From an uncultured Caldisericota bacterium (GTDB lineage: Bacteria; Caldisericota; Caldisericia; Cryosericales; Cryosericaceae): a DNA stretch of 64,000 nucleotides. Within the stretch, counting starts at the first letter, position 1; the number at the start of each line of letters is the position of its first letter. The notes beneath the pieces are model-generated. The model had not been told where the DNA came from. It searched no databases and saw only the letters and a list, made by a program, of their open reading frames with translations. This document shows positions 4,960-47,819 of the stretch, piece by piece. Made by a program: the position numbers and the translations under genes. The stretch covers positions 62,001-126,000 of the forward strand of contig CAIQIK010000020.1 in NCBI GenBank assembly GCA_903871855.1, read 5' to 3'.

Positions 4960-5247
4960 ATGTTGAAACCAATACACGTTGAAGGAATACACACCAAGCA
5001 CAGCGTCTTTCTCTACACGCTGAGTACCTGCGGGTGGTGCCGCAAGACGAAGGCACTACTGCAGGAACTGGGGGTCGCGTACGACTACGTCGATGTCGAC
5101 CAGCAGGAGGGCAGCAACAGGGAACTGGCCAAGCAGGAGGTCCTGAAATGGAATCCAGCGTGTTCGTTTCCGACCATCGTCGTGGATGGCAAGGATTGTG
5201 TCGTGGGGTTTCAGGAAGACAAGATTCGAGAGCTTGCGGCCGAATGA
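4960..5247 (+). CDS. Glutaredoxin-like protein with CGWC active site
   Basis: A 95-residue thioredoxin-fold protein: beta strand [19 protein letters not shown], then VAYDYVDVD, then the cis-Pro segment [20 protein letters not shown]. The CGWC dithiol at residues 24-27 is closer to NrdH/archaeal glutaredoxins than to CPYC types. AAGGAGGAAA precedes ATG 4960. The next gene overlaps by ATGA and encodes a ferredoxin:thioredoxin-reductase-like protein, so this glutaredoxin is probably reduced by ferredoxin rather than by glutathione or NADPH. An extra Cys pair (NPACSFP, GKDC) is present. Confidence 0.88.
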
Positions 5248-5744
5248 GCAGCATAGTGGACGAACGTGTCGCTGAGGTCTGGGAGAGACTCGTCCTCGAG
5301 GCACGGGATGCAGGATACGCTGTCAATCCTGACGACGCTTTTGCCAGGGAGCTGGTCCGGGGTCTGTTGGAGAACGAGGCACGCTACGGATATCGGGCCT
5401 GCCCCTGCCGTCTGGCATCAGGAGTAAGAGAGCGAGATGTCGACCTTGTCTGTCCGTGTGACTATCGGGACGCCGATCTCGACGAATATGGTGCCTGCTA
5501 TTGCGCTTTGTACGTCTCGCCCGAGATCAGTCGTGGACAGAAGACTGCCACATCCATTCCAGACCGGCGTCCGGTCGGCGGGCCAGCTGCGCCCGCGGAG
5601 AAAATGGAACAACTGCATGTAGCCGGGCTCATGTTCCCGGTATGGCGCTGCAAGGTTTGCGGGTACCTCTGCGCAAGGCCACAGCCTCCGCTGGTCTGTC
5701 CAGTCTGCAAGGCCGGCAAGGAGCGTTTCGAGCGCTTCATGTAG
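5244..5744 (+). CDS. Ferredoxin:thioredoxin reductase catalytic-type domain fused to a C-terminal rubredoxin-like domain
   Basis: The first ~110 residues carry the FTR catalytic-chain cysteine pattern, in order CPCR, CPCDYRD and [10 protein letters not shown], which holds the [4Fe-4S] cluster and redox disulfide. The C-terminal ~45 residues form a rubredoxin-like iron site: [10 protein letters not shown]...CPVCKAG. The start at ATG 5244 overlaps the glutaredoxin stop (ATGA). The family transfers single electrons from ferredoxin to a disulfide. The rubredoxin module could serve as an extra one-electron relay. Together with the preceding gene this looks like a ferredoxin:glutaredoxin reductase couple, as known from some anaerobic prokaryotes. 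Confidence 0.85.
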
Positions 5745-5976
5745 TATGACGTAGAACAATCGTCATGGGCTGCACGTGCCGGAGAGGAAATGTGGGCCGT
5801 GACGCTTCGACGCAGTGACTTGGCATCGCTGGTGTTGACTCTTTTAAGGCTGATTGGTCGGCTTGCCGTGTCGAGAACACTCATTGCAGCAGTCAAGAGC
5901 GCTCTGCATGCGTGTATCAGCGCGCGTTGGGTCGTGAACACATTTCCAGAGAGACCATCGGGCTGAACACGCAATG

Positions 5977-6005
5977 TTGACAAGACGCGAGCGTTCTGCT
6001 ATAGT
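5977..6005 (+). promoter_or_regulatory. Strong sigma-70 promoter for the ABC-2 efflux operon
   Basis: TTGACA (5977-5982) and TATAGT (6000-6005) are separated by the ideal 17 bp. The predicted transcript starts near 6012, leaving an untranslated leader of about 240 nt before the ATPase gene. Confidence 0.7.
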
Positions 6006-6060
6006 CACACAACCTCGGCAAACGGGGGGCTCGACCATTCGTGAATATGGAGGTATCTCA

Positions 6061-6090
6061 ATGGTAGACAATAGAATTTGCACCAACTGA
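6061..6090 (+). CDS. Nine-codon leader ORF (MVDNRICTN)
   Basis: GGAGGT (6049-6054) lies at the ideal six bases before ATG 6061, and the frame ends at TGA 6090. This is a far better initiation region than chance would give in a leader RNA. It is followed by inverted repeats and then the ABC ATPase. The arrangement resembles translation-attenuation leaders of resistance and efflux genes, but no regulation is demonstrated. Confidence 0.45.
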   Translation: MVDNRICTN

Positions 6091-6207
6091 TGACAGGGGT
6101 GCTGTTGATTGGACAAGCTGCAGCCAAGAGTTTGCCACAGTAAACGCAGGACAGTCAATTCCTCAGTCACTGACTCTCACAGAGTCCGTCAGTAGTCTCT
6201 CCTGTCA
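6091..6207 (+). promoter_or_regulatory. Competing RNA stems after the leader ORF (candidate attenuator)
   Basis: TGACAGG (6091-6097) can pair with CCTGTCA (6201-6207). GACTCT (6172-6177) pairs with AGAGTC (6181-6186) across a three-base loop. ACTGAC (6169-6174) pairs with GTCAGT (6188-6193). The first arm begins directly after the leader stop codon, so a ribosome stalled on the leader would mask it. Folding energies were not computed. Confidence 0.4.
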
Positions 6208-6249
6208 TACAGTCGCTTTTCCCCACACTTGTTCTGGAGGTAGCACTGT

Positions 6250-7254
6250 ATGCATACAGCTATTCAAGTAGAGAACCTCACTCGCGTCTTCAACCGCAGG
6301 GGCACCGCTCCTTTTCACGCGTTGCGAGGCATCAGCTTCGACGTGTCGTATGGCGAGATCTTCGGTCTTCTGGGCCCAAACGGCGCCGGCAAGACGACGA
6401 CCATCAAGATCATGTCGACGTTGCTGCTACCTACGTCTGGGTGTGTTACCGTTGCCGGCTTCGACGTCGAGAAAGACTACGCTCATGTACGACCGCTCAT
6501 CGGCCTTATTTCCGGAGGCGAGACCTCGGGCTATGGTATTCTCACCGTCGAGGAGCAGCTCTGGATGTTTAGTCAGTTCTACGGTATGGAGACACCCGTG
6601 GCTCGCGCCCGGATCGAAGAATACCTCAAGCTCGTCGGAATGTGGGACAGCAGGCGTCAGCAGATGAACCGCCTGTCGACCGGCATGCGTCAGAAGGTCA
6701 ATCTGGTGCGCGGTCTGGTCACCGACCCAAAGGTACTGTTCCTCGACGAGCCGACGCTGGGCGTCGATGTGGAAGCCAGTGTCGTCATCCGCAGCATCGT
6801 GCGCGATTGGGTCCAGGAGAAGCCGGAACGCTCGGTCATTCTGACAACACACTACATGGCAGAGGCCGATGAACTCTGTTCGCGCGTGGCTATCATCAAC
6901 CATGGGCTCATTCTTGCGAACGCACCTCCATCACAACTCAAACAGGACCTGGACAGCAGGGCGCACTACGAGATCACGGTTGATCGGCTCACCGCGGGGC
7001 AGCTGGACCTTATCGCTGCATTCATGGGTGAAGGGAACGATCTCGTCCTGGGTGCCGACAAGGTAACCAACAGTCCAATGCTTGTCGCACATCTGATGCA
7101 CGAGAGTGACATCGCCCGTCTCATCACCGCGCTGGCAGAGCAGGGAGCAACACTTGAGTACATGCGCAAACTCGAGCCGACTCTGGAAGACGCGTTTCTT
7201 AAGATGGTGGGCAGGAGGTTCGAAGATGAAGAAGAAGCTTCTCCTGTTTCTTAG
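6250..7254 (+). CDS. ABC transporter ATP-binding protein, DrrA/CcmA (ABC-2) class
   Basis: A 334-residue ATPase with Walker A GPNGAGKTTT (about 43-52), signature LSTGMRQKVNLVRGL, Walker B VLFLDEPTLGVD and H-loop TTHYMAEAD. The class powers export of drugs, lipids or polysaccharide through two ABC-2 membrane subunits, which follow directly. The C-terminal ~80 residues, which end LEPTLEDAFLKMVGRR, are the usual DrrA-type accessory tail. TGGAGG precedes ATG 6250. The stop overlaps the next gene by 29 bp. Substrate is unknown. Confidence 0.92.
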   Translation: MHTAIQVENLTRVFNRRGTAPFHALRGISFDVSYGEIFGLLGPNGAGKTTTIKIMSTLLLPTSGCVTVAGFDVEKDYAHVRPLIGLISGGETSGYGILTVEEQLWMFSQFYGMETPVARARIEEYLKLVGMWDSRRQQMNRLSTGMRQKVNLVRGLVTDPKVLFLDEPTLGVDVEASVVIRSIVRDWVQEKPERSVILTTHYMAEADELCSRVAIINHGLILANAPPSQLKQDLDSRAHYEITVDRLTAGQLDLIAAFMGEGNDLVLGADKVTNSPMLVAHLMHESDIARLITALAEQGATLEYMRKLEPTLEDAFLKMVGRRFEDEEEASPVS

Positions 7255-7483
7255 AACGCTCAACGCGCGTGCCTATGTGCGCATTTTTGGACAGATGCGT
7301 GAGGCGACCTGGGTCGTCGCGAGTGTCCTGGGTGGTTTCTTCACGATGACGACCTACATCTACCTTTACCGGACGCTCGGCACCGGTTCTGAGTTCAGCG
7401 GACTGGTGGTGCTGGGTGGGTTCATGACTCCCTTTTTCCTGAATGTTCTGTGGGGTGTTGCGATGCAGTTGTACTGGGAGTAG
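7226..7483 (+). CDS. ABC-2 permease, N-terminal part ended by an in-frame TAG
   Basis: Starts at ATG 7226 behind AGGAGG inside the 3' end of the ATPase gene. Encodes 85 residues with one or two membrane segments (VVASVLGGFFTMTTYIYLY, LVVLGGFMTPFFLNVLWGV) and ends ...MQLYWE before TAG 7481-7483. The family normally continues LYWE-x-E-x-GNLE in one chain, and the next frame is exactly in register and supplies that continuation. Together they would make a typical ~271-residue ABC-2 permease. The locus is therefore either a nonsense pseudogene, a readthrough site, a reinitiation pair or a sequencing error. Confidence 0.75.
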   Translation: MKKKLLLFLRTLNARAYVRIFGQMREATWVVASVLGGFFTMTTYIYLYRTLGTGSEFSGLVVLGGFMTPFFLNVLWGVAMQLYWE

Positions 7484-7486
7484 GAA

Positions 7487-8041
7487 ATGGGGAATCTGGA
7501 GCTGATGCTTGTGAGCCCCGCCCCACTGCCCGCCTTCCTCGTCGGTTTGTCTGTCGGCGGCGCTATGCATACGATGCTCCGGTCTCTAGCAGTGCTGTTT
7601 TTTGGCATCGCCGTGTTTAAGGTGAAGTTCACGGTTCTGCACCTGCCTCTAGCTTTGTTTGTTTTCTTTGTGACCCTGTTTTCGATGTATGGGTTGGGTA
7701 TTGTGTTCTCGTCGCTGTTTCTCTACCATGGGCGGGACGCATGGCGCACCGCCGATCTCGTCATGGAACCGACGAACGTTCTCTCGGGGTCCTACTTTCC
7801 CGCCAGATTTCTGGGATTTGGTCTACTCGGTATCGCAGCACTCATCCCGACGACGCTGGGGCTTGACGCACTGAGACAGCTCCTGGTCCCTTCGTTCACG
7901 GTGAAGGTGCTGGACTGGCACTGGGAGTTGCTCATCCTCATCGGGCTAGGCCTCGGGTTTGCATTCATTGCGTCATGGGCGCTGCGGTCCGTCGAGTTCA
8001 AAGCCAGGCGCGATGCGCGCCTGACGCTCAGGTGGCAGTGA
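7487..8041 (+). CDS. ABC-2 permease, C-terminal part downstream of the in-frame TAG
   Basis: Same frame as the preceding fragment, beginning MGNLELMLVSPAPLPAFLVG, which is the internal GNLE-L-L-SP signature of ABC-2 permeases. Four further hydrophobic segments follow, including the loop NVLSGSYFPARFLG typical of the family. ATG 7487 lies only three bases after the amber codon, so termination-reinitiation is conceivable, but there is no good ribosome site of its own. The stop overlaps the next permease by one base. Neither half shows decay other than the stop codon. Confidence 0.75.
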   Translation: MGNLELMLVSPAPLPAFLVGLSVGGAMHTMLRSLAVLFFGIAVFKVKFTVLHLPLALFVFFVTLFSMYGLGIVFSSLFLYHGRDAWRTADLVMEPTNVLSGSYFPARFLGFGLLGIAALIPTTLGLDALRQLLVPSFTVKVLDWHWELLILIGLGLGFAFIASWALRSVEFKARRDARLTLRWQ

Positions 8042-8853
8042 TGAAGGGTTTTCTTGCTTCCATGTATATTGGTCTGCAGATCGAGAGCAACTGGACAAAG
8101 AAGTGGGTGTGGCTGCTCTATCTTGCGGCATACCCGATCGGCAGTTTTCTCGCGGTCATCATCCTCTATGGGGTCTTCGGCCAGAAGACCGGGCTGCTCC
8201 CGTACGCACTGTATGGGACTATTTTCTACTACTCATTGAGCATGGTGTTTTTCGATATGGCGTTCAGCGTCCACGATGACCGGGAGCACTATCAGACGCT
8301 GAAGTACATCTTCCTGTCGAGTACTTCGTACCGAACCTACTTGTGCGGCCGTGCGGCAACACGATATCTTATCGCGCTCGCAGGAATCGCCATCAATCTG
8401 TCCTGGCTCGTTCCCGTGCTGCACCTGCCGTTTCACCCCAACTGGGGCTACCTTGCAGCAGGCGCGGTCCTCGGGTATCTCGTGGCCGCCGGCCTGGGGT
8501 TGGCCATGGCTTCTGTGTTCCTCCTGACGATTAAGCTGGATGTCGACGTTGTCGACGCGCTCTTCGGGGGCCTGTTCGTGCTGAGCGGGGCGCTGTTTCC
8601 TCCAACTGCCTTTCCAGCAGTGTTTGCCAGGGTCGCAGAGTTCGTTCCCATGAGTCCGTTTATCGAACTTATGCGCCGGGCGATCTCGGGGAAGATCCTT
8701 ACTACTTTTCTCTCCGACACGTCGACGTTCCAGTTGCTGGGGAGAGTGGCCCTGTCGGCAGCGGTCCTGTTTGCACTGGGGTCGGTTCTGGTCTCGTTTG
8801 GCAGTCGCCAGGCTCAGCGCAAGGGCTACATTGATGTGACTACTGCATTCTAG
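8041..8853 (+). CDS. ABC-2 permease, second membrane subunit
   Basis: A 270-residue membrane protein with about six hydrophobic segments, for example WVWLLYLAAYPIGSFLAVIILY and YLAAGAVLGYLVAAGLGLAM. It has the family's conserved late segment LFVLSGALFPPTAFP, comparable to SG-xFP loops. The start is ATG 8041, overlapping the previous stop; an upstream in-frame start at 7975 would run deep into the previous gene. It pairs with the interrupted permease and the DrrA-like ATPase. No substrate is evident. Confidence 0.85.
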   Translation: MKGFLASMYIGLQIESNWTKKWVWLLYLAAYPIGSFLAVIILYGVFGQKTGLLPYALYGTIFYYSLSMVFFDMAFSVHDDREHYQTLKYIFLSSTSYRTYLCGRAATRYLIALAGIAINLSWLVPVLHLPFHPNWGYLAAGAVLGYLVAAGLGLAMASVFLLTIKLDVDVVDALFGGLFVLSGALFPPTAFPAVFARVAEFVPMSPFIELMRRAISGKILTTFLSDTSTFQLLGRVALSAAVLFALGSVLVSFGSRQAQRKGYIDVTTAF

Positions 8854-37763: not shown

Positions 37764-38213
37764 ATGGACTCGGCGGGCAGGTGTCAGCTTTCTGGACAGA
37801 TGAAAGGATTCCGGATGACCAGGGATCGTCGCATCATTCTCCACGTTTTGGGCGAAGCGAGTATTCCACTGACAGCCGAAGACATCCTCGAAAGGGTGAA
37901 TGCATCCCAGCCGGGCATGGCACTCTCTACCGTTTATCGTACCCTCGATGAACTCATCAGCCGCAGCAGTGTGCAACGGACGCTGCTGAGCAATGACGGC
38001 CATGCATTCTTTGAGCTGATGGGAAGTGTCCATCGGCACTACATGGTCTGTCTCGGGTGTCATCGCATGTTTCCATTCAGCAGCTGTCCTGTAGGCGACT
38101 TTGCAGATAGCGCAGCTGAAGAGCTGAATTTTGAGGTAACCGATCACAGCCTCGTCTTGTATGGGTATTGCCGTCATTGCCGTTTAGGACGACAGTCTCA
38201 GGGATCGGAGTAG
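37764..38213 (+). CDS. Fur-family metal-responsive regulator
   Basis: About 149 residues. Winged-helix part: MTRDRRIILHVLGEASIPLTAEDILERVNASQPGMALSTVYRTLDELISR, with the A-STVYR recognition helix of Fur proteins. The metal domain has HRHYMVCLGCHRMFPFSSCP and a second pair CRHC near the end, which forms the structural zinc site. Whether it belongs to the Fur, Zur, PerR or Mur branch is undecided. It starts four bases after the exporter gene. Confidence 0.88.
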   Translation: MDSAGRCQLSGQMKGFRMTRDRRIILHVLGEASIPLTAEDILERVNASQPGMALSTVYRTLDELISRSSVQRTLLSNDGHAFFELMGSVHRHYMVCLGCHRMFPFSSCPVGDFADSAAEELNFEVTDHSLVLYGYCRHCRLGRQSQGSE

Positions 38214-38217
38214 AGAG

Positions 38218-38454
38218 TCAGCCGAGTTGCTCAGCGACGTCGGCCAATTGGTTGCGAATGGAGATATGCTGCGGGCACTTTTCCTCGCATGCTCCGCAGC
38301 GAACGCAGCTGTCAGGTGACGATCCTTCGCTTATCATGTGGTTGTATCTCTTGTGTCCCCATGTCCACATTACATTCTTGGTACAGAAGAAGTCCGTCCA
38401 GAATAGATCTAGGTGAAGCAAAACAGAGCTATCTTGCGTTTGGTCAGATGACAT
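38218..38454 (-). pseudogene. 3' remnant of a [4Fe-4S] aldo/keto reductase
   Basis: The last ~45 residues (HKRYNHMISEGSSPDSCVRCGACEEKCPQHISIRNQLADVAEQL) are the typical C-terminal ferredoxin-like tail of prokaryotic aldo/keto reductases, with CVRCGACEEKCPQ. The rest of a ~370-residue reductase is missing, and the upstream DNA is AT-rich island sequence. The gene appears to have been cut by insertion or deletion at the island border, near 38455-38500. Confidence 0.7.
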
Positions 38455-38520
38455 CTTGCTTTTCTCGCGATAGCCCTGACTCAGTCACACCACAACCCAA
38501 AGGTAGATTCGAAAACACGC

Positions 38521-39633
38521 TCAAACCGCCCTATGAACTATGTCCTTAACTCTCTCCTCGATATGTCTAAAGATAGTCTTATTTGCTTTGCAGAAGTAGT
38601 TCTCATCAGAGAAATCCTGTCGGGTCATATACCTGTAGTATGAACAGCCACCATGGCACACCTGATACCATTCACATTCTGAACACTCCGAGTGAATCGT
38701 TTTTGTCTCTCCCGCAAAATCCTTGTACTTATCGCTTTCTATGACAGTCTGCAAGTCGTCAGTCAAGATATTCCCAAATCTCAGCTCGTAATATCCAACA
38801 AAGCTGTCGCATGGATAAATATCACCGTTACAATCAATGGTGAGAAAGCTACTACATGTCCCGGCGAATTTGCAAAGCGTTGGCTTGCCACCCAACAAGC
38901 CGTTAAGGATGTTATCAAAGTATCGAATGTGAATCTTAGGATCGTCATCGTCCATCCACAAATCAAAGACCTGAATCATAAAATCTGCGAATTCAAACGC
39001 GGTTATGGATGACCCCGTTGTTTTTCCTTCATCTTTGTTGATCTCAATGCAAGGGAGGAAATCAAAAGTCTTGAAATTATGACCCACAAAGAAATCATAG
39101 ATTTCTTTAGCACTACAAGCATGTTCTTTGGTTACTACTGCCAGCAAGCCGAACGCTAATTCGTTCGCCATTAGACTGTTTGCTGATTTCATCACACGAT
39201 TGAATGATCCGTTTCCTGACGGATAAAGCCTATGATAATTGTGAATTTTGCTTGGGCCATCAAGGCTAATGCCAATGTTGAATTGATTCTCACGCAAGAA
39301 GCCGATCCATTCTTGACTAAGAAGCGTACCATTCGTTTGGATATTGTTGCGAATCTTCTGGCCCTCTCTTTGAACCTGCTTCTGAAAGGAAATGACATCT
39401 TCGTAGAAGTTCATCCCTACCAATAGTGGCTCTCCACCATGCCATATGAACGTTATCCTTTTTGATGGCAATGACAAAAGTTGCAAGATACTTTTGTGCA
39501 TTGTGTCTCTGCTCATAACAAGATTGCTATTGTCTCCTGTTAGATGAGACAGGTATTGGCAGTAGTTACATCTTAGAGTACACGCCGAGGTTACCTTCAT
39601 TATTAGGCTTATGTTTGTCATGTGCTCGTTCAT
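38521..39633 (-). CDS. Radical SAM/SPASM peptide-maturase-like enzyme
   Basis: About 370 residues. The radical SAM cluster motif is VTSACTLRCNYC (CxxxCxxC), followed by FIWHGGEPLLVGMNFYEDV, NNIQTNGTLLSQEWIGFL and GISLDGP, as in sulfatase-maturase/peptide-maturase relatives. The C-terminal SPASM domain holds auxiliary clusters: CKFAGTCSSFLTIDCNGDIYPCDSFVG, then CSECEWYQVCHGGCSYY and a last Cys (FCKAN). Start taken at 39633, five bases after the upstream gene; ATG 39621 is an alternative. Enzymes of this class install thioether or C-C crosslinks in ribosomal peptides. The two small paralogous peptides upstream make a RiPP role the best guess. AT-rich relative to the genome. Confidence 0.88.
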   Translation of the reverse strand: MNEHMTNISLIMKVTSACTLRCNYCQYLSHLTGDNSNLVMSRDTMHKSILQLLSLPSKRITFIWHGGEPLLVGMNFYEDVISFQKQVQREGQKIRNNIQTNGTLLSQEWIGFLRENQFNIGISLDGPSKIHNYHRLYPSGNGSFNRVMKSANSLMANELAFGLLAVVTKEHACSAKEIYDFFVGHNFKTFDFLPCIEINKDEGKTTGSSITAFEFADFMIQVFDLWMDDDDPKIHIRYFDNILNGLLGGKPTLCKFAGTCSSFLTIDCNGDIYPCDSFVGYYELRFGNILTDDLQTVIESDKYKDFAGETKTIHSECSECEWYQVCHGGCSYYRYMTRQDFSDENYFCKANKTIFRHIEERVKDIVHRAV

Positions 39634-39637
39634 TTCT

Positions 39638-40465
39638 CTAGTTCTGGAAGTCCCACCATATTGCATAGCCAAAACCTTCCTTAATTTCCCTCTCATTGAA
39701 ACGTTTGCGAATCAAGTACCTGTTGTCATACTCGTCACACTTAATACCACTTGACCCTTGATATTGCGAAAACTCCTCTGATGTCACTACACACCACCCA
39801 CAATGTACAGGCTTTGGTAGGTTTGGAGGAAGTCTCACGCTGAGTTCAAGAGACTTCGTAGGGCGCTTAATAGTAGCTGTTCCAATGGCGTCTGTGCTTG
39901 AGCGTAGAACATACTCCCAAGTAATTGGTGGAAGGTTACCCTTGTCTCCTTTTGCATATGGGCGCTTCAAGTCTATACCCACTCCGTCGGCGTGTTGCTG
40001 AAGATCATCACTGTCCAATTTGAGAGAGTCCCCTTCTGGAAAGCGACAGATGAATCCCTTAGGTGTTCCACGTAATGGATAGAACGTTTGAAATTCATGA
40101 AGTTCACTTCGTAGAGTTCTAAATCTGATTTTCTGTGTTATGGTAACTTTCCTGCTTCCATCGCCTTGTTCACACAAGTCAAGTTCGTCAATTTCCTCAA
40201 GTATTTGAAACCCGCTTCTTGTACCAATTCTTCGATCGAGATAAAATCCTAAGATATACAGCCCGATCGCCATTAGTACTACAATAAGCAGTATGGCCGA
40301 ATAGAGCCAACGATGCAAAAGCAACTCTTCTGGCTTGCCTCGAAAGAGTGCTTCGAAAACAATATAGCAGTTAACAATAACACTAAGTAGAAAAGCCCAT
40401 GCTGTCCCCTTTTTTCTTAAGAACTCTAAGATAGGACTTCTTGTTTCCTCTTCTTCGGTATCCAT
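39638..40465 (-). CDS. Two-TM beta-rich protein of unknown function in the peptide-maturase operon
   Basis: 275 residues. A polar N-terminus is followed by two membrane helices (AWAFLLSVIVNCYIVFEALF and WLYSAILLIVVLMAIGLYILGFYL). About 190 cytosolic or exposed residues rich in predicted beta strands follow (VTITQKIRFRTL, GFICRFPEGDSLKLD, LELSVRLPPNLPKPVHCGWCVV, YLIRKRFNEREIKEGFGYAIWW). I do not recognise the family. The architecture is like two-TM beta-strand-rich effector proteins described in bacterial conflict systems. Transport, immunity or an effector role are all possible. It lies between the small peptides and the radical SAM gene with gaps of 40 and 4 bases. Confidence 0.7.
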   Translation of the reverse strand: MDTEEEETRSPILEFLRKKGTAWAFLLSVIVNCYIVFEALFRGKPEELLLHRWLYSAILLIVVLMAIGLYILGFYLDRRIGTRSGFQILEEIDELDLCEQGDGSRKVTITQKIRFRTLRSELHEFQTFYPLRGTPKGFICRFPEGDSLKLDSDDLQQHADGVGIDLKRPYAKGDKGNLPPITWEYVLRSSTDAIGTATIKRPTKSLELSVRLPPNLPKPVHCGWCVVTSEEFSQYQGSSGIKCDEYDNRYLIRKRFNEREIKEGFGYAIWWDFQN

Positions 40466-40505
40466 TGCGCTTATCTACATTACGCCTACCCACAGAATTC
40501 GTTTG

Positions 40506-40691
40506 TCAATTCCGATCCCAGTTGTCCCAAGCATTATAATCCGACCAATCATCAATACCGTTCTCTGCAAGATTGGCCAAACCTCTTATGCGACGAACTG
40601 CTCCTATTAGGATCTTGCCTCCTTGCTCCAAGCAGCACTTCTCGGCCTGCATCTTCTCTTCAAAGAGTTTCAATTCCCTGGAGGTGATCAT
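40506..40691 (-). CDS. Candidate RiPP precursor peptide A (ends WDNWDRN)
   Basis: 61 residues starting MITSRELKLFEEKMQAEKCC and ending DDWSDYNAWDNWDRN. The N-terminal ~45 residues are a charged helix with E-x-G-x-x-IL...I-x-G in common with peptide B. The C-terminal tail is very rich in Trp, Asp and Asn. The start at 40691 is chosen because it aligns with the start of peptide B (M-I/L-TSREL); an in-frame ATG at 40739 is less likely. The tail motifs W-S-D, W-D-N and W-D-R are typical three-residue sites for cyclophane-forming radical SAM enzymes. Confidence 0.65.
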   Translation of the reverse strand: MITSRELKLFEEKMQAEKCCLEQGGKILIGAVRRIRGLANLAENGIDDWSDYNAWDNWDRN

Positions 40692-40739
40692 GTGCTCTCG
40701 CCCTTGCTCTTCCGCATAAATACTTGTGCTTCTACCCAT

Positions 40740-40934
40740 CTAGTTTCGATCCCAATTGGACCAGTTAATCGACTCGTTGTATTCCGCCCACTTGTTCAAG
40801 TCATTCTCCTCAAAACTCAACGAGCCATTTATGCATTGAAGTGTCGCTAACAGAATTCTGCTACCTGTCTCAATACAATGCTCCATGTCACGTATCTTGC
40901 TCTTAAGATGTCCCAATTCTCGTGATGTAAGCAT
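40740..40934 (-). CDS. Candidate RiPP precursor peptide B (ends WSNWDRN)
   Basis: 64 residues starting MLTSRELGHLKSKIRDMEHC and ending NKWAEYNESINWSNWDRN, behind a strong GGGGAGAG ribosome site. It is clearly homologous to peptide A: same leader start, a conserved Cys, E-x-G-x-x-IL and the same last residues NWDRN. It is the first gene of the presumed operon B-A-2TM-radical SAM. The conserved leader with a variable middle and conserved aromatic tail is what precursor families look like. Confidence 0.65.
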   Translation of the reverse strand: MLTSRELGHLKSKIRDMEHCIETGSRILLATLQCINGSLSFEENDLNKWAEYNESINWSNWDRN

Positions 40935-41205
40935 GTTCTCTCCCCTTTACCTTCCCATTTGAAATCTATCATGGAGCTTCTCAAGAACAACTCAAATTGC
41001 TACACTAGGAAGCCTACAGGAAGCTGAGTCATTGCTCCGTTAATCAGTCTGTATTCGACAAGGGTTTTCTTACAACAAAACTCCGTCTTCCAACAAGAAG
41101 ACAGAAGACGCCAAATAGCATAGAAACAGCTGTAGAATAACGAGGGATTGCCGCACTTGCTCCCGTTCCTCGTACGTCTGTCCTCTCTTGGCTATCATTA
41201 GCCCC
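40935..41205 (-). other. AT-rich gap upstream of the small-peptide operon
   Basis: 271 bp without a supported gene. It should hold the promoter of the peptide operon; on the minus strand TTGTTC-16 bp-TAGATT is the best but weak candidate, about 45 bp before the start of peptide B. Confidence 0.3.
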
Positions 41206-41967
41206 CTAATCGCGGCTTAGTGATAGCACTGTATGGAACATATTTTCGCTGTCAATAGCTTCTCGGGGAGCGACTTGCCAAACCACGTGCAACAACTCCT
41301 CGGCTGACACCTGGTAAGACGTTTTCCAGTCGGGGCACTTCCTCGGACGGTTGTTGAACGCGTGGATTGCATCATCGAGTTGCTTCTTGGCCACTGACAA
41401 GAAGCTTGTATGCTTAGGAAAGAACTGACGTACAACCCATTCGTGTTTTCGTTGGCAGACCGTTTCCGCAGGCCATATAGATGTGCGAAGGATCTCGCAG
41501 TCACTTACGCGACTTCTGGCCGCTGTTCCGGTTAGTCGCTCACCCTTGGATATGCGATCAGGGATCGTACCTCTTCATTCTTCGCCTTCCGCTTTGCGGT
41601 AATTCCCTTGCTGCCTGAGTTTTTCTCGGAGAACCACTTGTAACAAGCCGTTCTTCAAGGCATGGTAGATAGTTGCGGTGCAAGGGTCCATGTCATGATG
41701 GCGGGCAGTCTGCTCAGGTGACCAGTACTGCTCCAAGCCGGTTACAATCTGTTCGTAATTCTGATCTCATGACCTTCAGTTGAGGCTTACATGCTCGTCT
41801 GCAAAGCGTGTAAGAATTCTGAGCCTCATGAGCACTGTAGCCGTGTCTCCCTCCATTTCTGCGGACTTCCCGGCTGATCGTACTCTTACTTCGTCCAAGC
41901 GCCCCGTAATCTGTATGATGTTTTTCTGATGGTGATACATCAGTAGTGTGTACTCGCATTCACTCAT
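41206..41967 (-). pseudogene. Decayed IS30-family transposase
   Basis: Three reading frames together give most of an IS30 transposase. The N-terminal HTH is GRSKSTISREVRRN...YSAHEAQNSY (41714-41959). A middle part YWSPEQTARHH...TIYHALKNGLLQ is readable around 41560-41740. The C-terminal catalytic end is NENTNGL...FNNRPRKCPDWKTSYQV (41206-41504). Frameshifts and an internal stop separate them, so the element is dead. It marks the right side of the AT-rich island. Terminal inverted repeats were not identified. Confidence 0.8.
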
Positions 41968-42211
41968 GGTAAGATGGTAGTAGTTCGCCCTGTCAACCTT
42001 CTATTCTATCGCATCGGTTTGTCTCGATGGACTTCCTTGTTCAGTTCAGCTCGTTGCACCCAAATTGGACAGCTGGCAGTAGAAGACAGATGAGGCAATA
42101 CGATCCGTTGCAACACAGGTCAAAGGGAATAAACTGAATGTGCATGAAATCAGCAACTCACAGGCCTGTCAGGGCGCATCTGCTCTGCGGGGCCGAGGCA
42201 AGGAGCCATGA

Positions 42212-46028: not shown

Positions 46029-47819
46029 ATGGGAATCAAGTCTGACACCTGGATCGCGTCCCATGCACTGGCTGGCATGATCGAACCGTTTGCACCAGAC
46101 TCTCCCAGGGGCGTCGTCTCCTATGGAGTGTCATCGTATGGATACGACATGCGTGTGGCGGACGAATTCAAGGTTTTCACCAATGTCTTCAACACCATCG
46201 TCGATCCAAAGGCGTTCACCGAGCAGAGTTTTGTGGACATGAAGGGGGATTCCTGCATCATCCCGCCAAACTCCTTCGCGCTCGCGCGCAGTCTGGAGTA
46301 CTTTCGGATTCCCCGGGATGTCCTGTGCCTTGTCATCGGCAAGAGTACGTATGCCCGAGCAGGCATCATTGTCAACGTGACGCCGCTTGAACCATGCTAC
46401 AGTCCTGATACTGAGGTACTGACCTCAAATGGATGGAAGAATATTACGGAAATACAAGACATGGAAGAAGTTGCAACAATAGATTCACAAGGGGAGATGG
46501 AATATCAGCAGATAACGGGAAAACAAAAGACCCCATTTCAAGGAGACCTAATTTCCGTAAAGGGACGGAATTTGGATCTTCTGGTAACACCAGAGCATTT
46601 CCTGTATGTGAAGTCCAGATACAAGGAAAGTTATGAATTTGCTAGGGCAAAAGATGTGTATGGAAAGTACAATTTTGAGATGAAAAGAGATGCTGTGTGG
46701 AAAGGCGAAGATCCCAAATTCTTTGAACTAGATACTGCAGAAGACGATACCTACAAGCAATTGAATGTTGTTGCAGAAAGAGTATTCAAAATGCTTGAGT
46801 ACTCAGAAGAGCTTTCTACAAGAAAACTGTATGATGGGTTAGTCGAATCCGGATACAAAATAGTCTATGAAAATTTGGACTATTTGCTCTCCCTGCTAGT
46901 ATCAAAATCTAGTCTCTCTGTTAAAAAGAGAAGAACGGGGAAGATTACCAATAAAGTCTATAGGCTAAGTAAAAGAATCTCTTTGGGAGAATTCGCAAGA
47001 ATACAAATTCCTATTGAAGATTGGGCTTGGTTTATGGGCATTTGGTTGTCAGAAGGATCTGCTTTTTCACGGCCAAAAGGGAATTACGCAATCAAAGTAG
47101 CGCAAATAGGAACGGAGAATAGAGAAATAATAAAAAGGCATCTGCTGAAACTACCATTCGATTTTGTAGAAGAAGAACTTGGTTTCAAGGCATTGAATAA
47201 ACAACTGTCGACCTATTTGCAACAATATGGCCATAGTAAAGAGAAACATATACCAAACACAATAAGAAACTTGTCGCCTAGACTTCTGAAGATTTTCCTA
47301 GATGCTTATATTCTTGGAGACGGGAACAAAGAAACCGAAACAATAACTACTTCTTCAAGAAAAATGGCCGACAATCTTCAGGAAGTCATACTGAAGGCAG
47401 GATACGCTTCTATTGTTAGATATGTCGAAAAAGGCCAAACGCACTTTTTGAAAGGAAGAAGAATGTCTTCTGGGAATATATGTAAAATAAGAATTTCCAG
47501 AAAACAACTTACTCCTAAATTGTGTGGGAAATCCTTTTCAAAAGTTCCATATGATGGTTTTGTCTATGATGTAACTGTTCCGAACCATACCCTATACACA
47601 AGAAGAAATGGAAAATCCTGTTGGTCAAGCAACTGCTGGGAAGGCTTTGTGACCATCGAAATCAGTAACACGACGCCGCTTCCCGTCAAGGTCTATGCCA
47701 ACGAGGGGATTGCCCAGGTTCTCTTCATGGAAGCTGATGACGTATGTGGCGTCTCCTACGAAGATAAGAAGGGAAAGTACCAGAATCAGACAGGTATCTG
47801 GTTGCCGAGGGTAGAGTAG
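46029..47819 (+). CDS. dcd: dCTP deaminase interrupted by a LAGLIDADG intein
   Basis: The 596-residue product consists of extein residues 1-122 and 536-596 (183 residues joined) around a 413-residue intein. The host protein is a dCTP deaminase (dCTP to dUTP): [30 protein letters not shown], then [30 protein letters not shown] and the QTGIWLPR tail. The insertion splits the conserved PLEP-x-WEG loop beside the catalytic Glu of VTIE. The spliced protein would read LEPCWEG, with Cys where relatives have Glu or Gly. Start ATG 46029 behind TTTGGAGGCG. First gene of the nucleoside operon, under a LacI-type operator. Confidence 0.93.
46395..47633 (+). mobile_element. Intein with LAGLIDADG homing endonuclease, inserted in dcd
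   Basis: Starts at Cys123 (block [21 protein letters not shown]) and ends at Asn535, followed by Cys536. Block B is [14 protein letters not shown] with the TxxH motif. A region with helix-turn-helix/winged-helix look ([21 protein letters not shown]) precedes the endonuclease. The two LAGLIDADG-type helices are [12 protein letters not shown] and [11 protein letters not shown]. Block F is [16 protein letters not shown] and block G is CWSSN|C. The penultimate residue is Ser, not the usual His. The intein DNA is strongly AT-rich compared with the exteins, a sign of recent transfer. Confidence 0.92.

Follow-up and report, generated by a model that had tools for sequence, protein, structure and literature searches.

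Upstream of an ABC exporter operon of Candidatus Cryosericum (Caldisericota), we identified a conserved leader of approximately 160 nucleotides (nt) between a nine-codon open reading frame (ORF) and the first exporter gene, in which two mutually exclusive helices share one strand. We consider it probable that this leader acts in cis as a translational attenuator of the ermC/toiL kind, operated by the ribosomes of the short ORF. The leader lies in a 64,000-nt stretch of DNA, here referred to as the window, within a 299-kb contig of a 1.84-Mb genome, and all leader and operon features described below are on its forward strand. Control of this kind has precedents, and what appears to be new is the layout and its presence in this phylum; our search of the open-licence literature on Cryosericum, on Caldisericota riboswitches and on Caldiserica leader peptides found no such control described for the phylum. 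If the proposal is true, ribosome-sensing control of exporters would extend to an uncultured phylum, in a layout where a long-range helix incorporates the stop codon of the leader ORF and competes for the start codon of the target.

The operon starts with an ABC ATPase gene (positions 6250 to 7254; PF00005 above cut-off), followed by the genes of ABC-2 permease 1 (7226 to 8041) and ABC-2 permease 2 (8041 to 8853; PF12698 above cut-off). This combination of an ABC ATPase and ABC-2 permeases in one operon is that of an ABC-2 exporter, with PF01061 just below its cut-off in the second piece of permease 1 (26.7 versus 26.9). An earlier note on this DNA had called the exporter DrrA-type. The resemblance holds, but membership in the family does not, as the ATPase scored 266.9 bits against the drrA model TIGR01188, whose cut-off is 312.45; the drrB model TIGR01247 gave 41.9 bits for permease 1 of the related locus L003, against a cut-off of 223.05. 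The ATPase is 92 to 94% identical in relatives among which are four species of Candidatus Cryosericum and several metagenome-assembled genomes of Caldiserica, and on this basis we assigned the window to Cryosericum. An in-frame TAG (7481 to 7483) interrupts permease 1 of this genome alone, as all ten full relatives have an open frame at that point; the TAG stems from a sequencing error or else marks an operon in decay. In loci L011 and L051 (genomes G005 and G008), the ATPase is just 84 to 85% identical to that of the window, while for the leader and permease 1 the distance is much like that to other species; the ATPase gene may have been exchanged by recombination in these two. An in-frame TGA in paralogues of the ABC ATPase was considered and rejected, since the stop is the end of the protein in L020, L021 and L024, the three loci for which the coding frame was read; L017, L018 and L022 were obtained in a different frame or strand. 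Upstream of the leader, a gene at 5247 to 5744 encodes a ferredoxin-thioredoxin reductase beta domain and a rubredoxin-like domain (PF02943 and PF21349), and a glutaredoxin gene (4960 to 5247) adjoins it.

The leader is preceded by a sigma-70-like promoter, TTGACA-17-TATAGT (5977 to 6005), that matches 11 of 12 consensus positions and places the predicted transcription start at approximately 6012. Among the 11 genomes with a full copy, TTGACA is present in all and TATAGT in nine (TAGAAT in L045 and TATATT in L047), and the sequence flanking the boxes has diverged. The first bases of the predicted transcript (approximately 6012 to 6035), from [CT]TTGAGGG onward, are alike in nine of the ten full relatives and quite different in the window. 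Two features described in the earlier note, an ideal Shine-Dalgarno (SD) sequence six bases ahead of an ATG and a nine-codon ORF in front of the efflux operon, were found as claimed: GGAGGT occupies 6049 to 6054, the ATG 6061 to 6063, and the ORF (6061 to 6090; ATG GTA GAC AAT AGA ATT TGC ACC AAC TGA) encodes MVDNRICTN and precedes the ATPase gene at 6250. A short ORF with its own SD is kept in the relatives; in all 11 full copies, the window included, it is nine codons long. The divergent, partial copy in genome G013 also has GGAGGT and, read by eye, a ten-codon ORF, MRISETTRIN, after AAGGAGGT. Mean pairwise divergence of GGAGG among the 11 genomes is 0.000, compared with 0.179 before and 0.278 after it. 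The combination of a strong SD and a short ORF is in itself common and not unusual, as the window holds 27 matches to GGAGG-N5-9-ATG, five of which open ORFs of 5 to 20 codons.

The peptide is conserved in part. Its consensus in the 11 genomes is M-[VAT]-[DEY]-N-R-I-[CR]-[TI]-N, so that M1, N4, R5, I6 and N9 are invariant; codons 2, 3, 7 and 8 vary, i.e., four of the nine sense codons change their amino acid, and the G013 peptide is, by eye, nearly unrelated. The earlier note had named loss of peptide conservation as a ground for rejecting ribosome-stalling control by antibiotics, and that ground applies in part. Drug-specific arrest-peptide attenuators, such as those of ermC and cat-86, have a conserved leader peptide sequence, and no conservation of that type was found across the 11 genomes and G013. 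A drug-specific arrest peptide is therefore unlikely. Codons 4 and 5 show synonymous changes only, a weak hint of selection on the peptide level. Common to the copies is thus a strong SD followed by a short ORF whose end falls inside a helix, P1, described below.

The same alignment bears on a second small protein, ORF2 (MTGVLLIGQAAAKSLPQ; 6090 to 6143), that would start from the overlapping stop-start TGATG. Such an overlap of stop and start is as in translational coupling, yet over the 17 codons in 11 genomes, seven are invariant and ten change the amino acid, a stop also occurring at one of the ten; no codon changes synonymously only. There is an early stop in L053, the frame is lost in L051 and, by eye, the ORF is short in G013. 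On this pattern of codon changes, we rejected ORF2 as a gene and consider the reading very improbable.

Of 15 Cryosericum genomes searched at the DNA level, 12 have the leader, its own included: ten other full copies and the copy in G013, which lies at a contig end. There was no match in G004 (UBA4822), G006 and G007. G006 has no close relative of the ATPase (best identity, 38%), and in G007 the contig breaks within the ATPase gene. UBA4822 carries the operon and, by eye, the same kind of promoter with the leader absent, which indicates that the leader is a separable module. In G013, synteny holds upstream of the copy, and the ATPase part is found on a different contig; on the strength of the upstream synteny, we took the copy as presumably orthologous in place. 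In this genome (L119; G013:C188, 108 to 862), approximately 750 bases separate the leader match from the next stretch resembling the window, where the corresponding spacer is approximately 300.

In the ten full relatives, BLAST similarity begins at 6036 to 6037, with none from approximately 5752 to there. The region from 6089, one base inside the leader stop codon, to 6249 differs between the window and these ten relatives by 1.9 to 5.6%, compared with 28 to 57% at four-fold sites of the ATPase gene and 26 to 39% at those of permease 1. Four further genome pairs (14 of 55 pairs were compared in all) gave 0.6 to 9.3% for the leader versus 6 to 57% for the ATPase and 21 to 35% for permease 1. 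We also compared 160-nt segments along the syntenic region with seven genomes, two of which were uninformative (G004, with no leader match, and G013, whose copy is cut by the contig end). Against G005 (505 matched segments) and G003 (734), only leader segments reached the level of the segment at 6081, and against G008, 4 of 919 did, one of them the leader. The counts were 25 of 880 for G014 and 40 of 1,033 for G001, leader segments included, so that the leader stands at about the 95th percentile there.

Within the leader, the conservation is uneven. Mean pairwise divergence in the 11 genomes is 0.000 for the leader SD, 0.278 for the spacer, 0.143 for codons 1 to 6, 0.073 for codon 7 to the stop, 0.012 for the 5′ strand of P1, 0.066 for the interior between the P1 strands and 0.062 for the 3′ strand of P1; the segment from the exporter SD to the start codon (6236 to 6252) is invariant (0.000). 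The 5′ strand of P1, with the leader stop codon inside it, is thus the least variable of these segments after the two SDs. Judged by these sequences, the peptide is more variable than the RNA, and it is the RNA that is under conservation.

The overlapping alternative stems that the earlier note had placed downstream of the leader ORF are present and extend further than it had them, past 6210 to the exporter start codon at 6250. P1 pairs its 5′ strand AACTGATGACAGGGG (6085 to 6099), which includes the leader stop codon TGA (6088 to 6090), with its 3′ strand CTCCTGTCATACAGT (6199 to 6213). In full it joins AACUGAUGACAGGGG with CCCCUGUCAUACAGUU in 15 base pairs and one bulged A; the last pair is missing from the window, which also carries the permease 1 TAG. 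The 3′ strand contains CATACAG (6206 to 6212), which can change its partner in silico. In the alternative helix, CAUACAG pairs with CUGUAUG (6246 to 6252), which holds the exporter AUG, and the pairing is extended by GCUUUUCC against the SD region; in the consensus fold, the rest of this start-region hairpin (6214 to 6252) sets GCTTTTCC against GGAGGTAGC, with the exporter SD at 6236 to 6241, and CTGTATG against CATACAG. Through CATACAG, P1 and the start-codon helix exclude each other in silico. Twelve of the 15 P1 pairs never vary, as do 16 of 21 pairs overall; no covariation was seen, none of the 21 being changed on both sides. An A-C mismatch occurs in P1 of 3 of the 11 copies, and one more copy is mismatched at the P1 end.

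Folding of the 11 sequences, a check that the earlier note had proposed, supported a change of partner. When the RNA is free, CATACAG pairs with the leader with a probability of 0.43 to 0.85, the lowest value belonging to L047, where it is split nearly evenly (0.43 with the leader and 0.49 with the start codon). With the 5′ strand of P1 masked, CATACAG moved onto the start codon in all 11 genomes (0.71 to 1.00), and its pairing with the start region was 0.69 to 1.00 under either this mask or a 29-nt ribosome footprint at the leader stop codon. Folded from the predicted transcription start, start-codon accessibility fell from 0.44 to 0.71 in the free RNA to 0.00 to 0.20 with a ribosome at the stop codon in 8 of 11 genomes; in the other three, it was low already when free (L047, 0.20; L049, 0.25; L048, 0.00). 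The free value depends on the 5′ end: it was 0.10 in L003 and 0.22 in L011 with a shorter 5′ end, compared with 0.61 and 0.57 from the predicted start. Footprints at codons 1 to 4 left the start codon open (0.40 to 0.73) and those at codons 7 to 9 closed it in the window, L003, L045, L052, L011 and L051. Early footprints opened it poorly in L053, L046 and L049 (0.06 to 0.36), in L048 (0.00 to 0.52) and in L047 (0.22 to 0.37). Accessibility of the exporter SD was 0.16 to 0.37 in both states; the predicted targets of control are therefore the start codon and the stability of the whole hairpin.

We compared the drop in accessibility with that of shuffled sequences. The stretch between the 5′ strand of P1 and the exporter SD was shuffled in the window, L003, L011 and L051, all four from the eight switching genomes, and none of 150 shuffles in each (0 of 600) reached the observed drop. 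These results bear on the reading that the region is an ordinary 5′ untranslated region (UTR) with a chance short ORF and no switch. The five arrangements of SD and short ORF within the window would suit it, as would the overall fold, which was no more stable than that of shuffled sequences (z, −0.52; 52 of 200 shuffles folded at least as well). Set against the conservation of the leader, which places the arrangement beyond chance, and against the shuffle control of the switch, an ordinary UTR is very improbable.

From these elements we infer that the leader ORF is translated, in which direction the switch works and what it senses. In the proposed attenuator, the promoter would give rise to a leader with efficient translation of the nine-codon ORF. 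On reaching the leader stop codon, ribosomes would cover the 5′ strand of P1, and the freed CATACAG would pair with the exporter start codon and close it (OFF). Ribosomes held early on the ORF, or not loading at all, would allow P1 to form and capture CATACAG, leaving the start codon open (ON). The exporter would thus be made when translation is disturbed, as by ribosome inhibitors and possibly when supply runs short at codon 5 (Arg, AGR). Given the drift of the peptide, the data are more in line with a sensor of translation in general than with an arrest peptide specific to one drug. Several observations speak against an attenuator, namely, the absence of covariation, the mismatches in P1 and its missing last pair in the window, the low free accessibility in L047, L048 and L049, the even split of CATACAG in L047, the poor opening by early footprints in L053, L046, L049 and L047 and mostly also in L048, the dependence of the values on the 5′ end, the SD accessibility that is alike in both states, the unexceptional stability of the overall fold and an interior of 99 nt that is more conserved than such a device needs.

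Codon 5 also raises the question of amino-acid attenuation, in which a ribosome waiting at this Arg codon (AGA or AGG) would open the exporter under a shortage of the rare arginyl-tRNA. The codon is AGR in 11 of 11 genomes, and across 49 long ORFs of the window, no Arg codons are used less than AGA and AGG (6.7 and 7.3 per thousand). Furthermore, of the nine codon positions tried, placing codon 4 in the P site gave the greatest start-codon accessibility in 7 of 11 genomes. For L053 and L046, two of the seven, the values were nevertheless far lower than in the free RNA, at 0.32 and 0.36 versus 0.71. This is one codon rather than a run, by eye it is absent from G013, and an exporter is no obvious target of arginine control. 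We consider this reading quite improbable.

The attenuator that we favor has several described relatives. The bmrCD transporter presumably belongs to another ABC class than the Cryosericum exporter. In ermC, efficient leader translation leads to a stem that protects the ribosome-binding site (RBS), and a held ribosome leads to an alternative stem that leaves the resistance gene open, according to a published account (PMC4191407). The Cryosericum leader is predicted to follow the same logic, a ribosome at the stop codon closing and a held or absent ribosome opening the target. As far as that account goes, it differs from ermC in that the target is an ABC-2 exporter, the peptide is not conserved as an arrest peptide, and the start codon would be closed via a strand common to a long-range helix around a 99-nt conserved interior. 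The short upstream ORF toiL of Escherichia coli topAI sets the accessibility of the RBS and responds to several classes of translation inhibitors; there, pairing with the RBS involves the leader ORF itself, and the proposal is that a stalled ribosome frees the site (PMC12121999). Both systems have a short upstream ORF that governs, or in our case would govern, downstream accessibility, and a general sensor is proposed for both. Compared with toiL as described there, only the last codon, the stop codon and the following bases pair in Cryosericum, and they do so with a distant strand; the predicted effect of a ribosome at this position is closure of the start codon.

The nearest ABC exporter precedent among the systems compared here is bmrB-bmrCD of Bacillus subtilis, where a 53-amino-acid leader ORF and alternative stems precede an ABC multidrug exporter and control transcription termination (PMC4191407). 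A leader ORF with alternative stems ahead of an ABC exporter is what the two have in common. In contrast to that system as outlined, the Cryosericum leader has no terminator-like site: a consensus scan of 5977 to 6250 found no intrinsic terminator of the kind a transcription attenuator has. In mgtQ-mgtB of Salmonella, a short ORF over alternative stem-loops sets the translation of a transporter and reportedly depends on acidic residues (PMC8092293). The overlap of a short ORF with alternative stems that control, or here may control, a transporter gene is alike; in contrast to the acidic residues there, codon 3 of the Cryosericum ORF is D, E or Y.

The interior between the P1 strands (6100 to 6198; 99 nt; divergence, 0.066) contains a hairpin, GACTCT-CAC-AGAGTC (6172 to 6186), and two sets of blocks that are invariant even when G013 is included. 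The first set reads GCA-n-CAACTGATG-n-CAGGG and GTTGATTGGAC, the second CGCAG-n-AC, TCAA, TC, TCA, TCA and the GACTC of the hairpin, and the two flank a variable middle. An inner fold of P2 (GUUGA/UCAAU) and P3 (CUGC/GCAG) is a candidate; its pairs are kept in 12 of 12 rows, at a cost of 1.1 to 10.3 kcal/mol relative to the unconstrained fold in 11. Another hairpin, ACTGAC/GTCAGT (6169 to 6193), was rejected, as it is broken in L047, L048 and L051. The strongly conserved interior represents a candidate structured RNA outside Rfam.

This interior invites the reading of a riboswitch-like or protein-binding RNA, with the interior as a sensor and P1 as its closing helix. Binding would stabilize P1 and turn the exporter on, and the ORF would be a helper that, for example, resets P1. 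A 99-nt interior at a divergence of 0.066, with invariant blocks that even G013 retains, exceeds the needs of an attenuator, and such blocks around a variable middle are as in aptamers. In riboswitches, a strand of P1 is usually common to the expression platform, the same layout as that of CATACAG, which P1 shares with the start-codon helix. Searches against Rfam point the other way. The whole window gave no match at the gathering level, hence no known class of riboswitch, and 5740 to 6300 gave, at E values of up to 10, only a chance match to a microRNA (E value of 6.2). Proven riboswitches are usually more widespread than this leader, which as searched is a single copy per genome in one genus and one place among 54 genomes of the phylum. 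An ORF that runs into P1, which sets this leader apart from riboswitches, would keep disturbing an aptamer, and the inner helices P2 and P3 are no more than candidates. This reading is possible and clearly less probable than the attenuator. A hybrid of the two, a sensor restricted to the genus, would have an aptamer for a small molecule in the interior (perhaps for the exporter substrate), P1 as the closing helix and the ribosome at the stop codon as a second input, so that the exporter would be on when the ligand is present or translation falters; we think it rather unlikely.

The distribution was assessed with an RNA model of the leader, R1. Among 54 genomes of the phylum, it found one copy per genome in one place, 12 Cryosericum copies in all and none credible outside the genus, in a search run with stricter filters and 60 first-look candidates scored per genome that could miss weak copies. 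Four weak matches, one each in G036 and G048 and two in G047 (E values of 0.01 to 0.78), were attributed to chance, as their alignments are without the larger part of the interior or a good deal of the pairing in P1. Two viral contigs with an exact 19-base match were likewise discarded, their downstream sequence being unlike the leader by eye and without an R1 match, and a two-block pattern had no match in viral contigs. A 16-base pattern, CAACTGATGNCAGGGG, searched with up to two mismatches in the 54 genomes, brought up a recurring AAACTGATGRCAGGGG. It was rejected as a second copy of the RNA, since its flanks in six Cryosericum stretches and four loci of another family are mutually alike and unlike the leader; by eye, it is probably a conserved protein-coding stretch, and the four loci of the other family had no Rfam match.

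Two observations were made by eye elsewhere in the window. An ORF of 596 amino acids (46029 to 47819) resembles a dCTP deaminase split by an intein-like insert and lies in a stretch with a low GC content of 0.44, compared with approximately 0.57 around it. The region from 38001 to 42000 also has a low GC content (0.45 to 0.46) and holds a radical-SAM/SPASM-like ORF on the reverse strand (38521 to 39696) and a membrane-protein-like ORF; it may be an acquired island.
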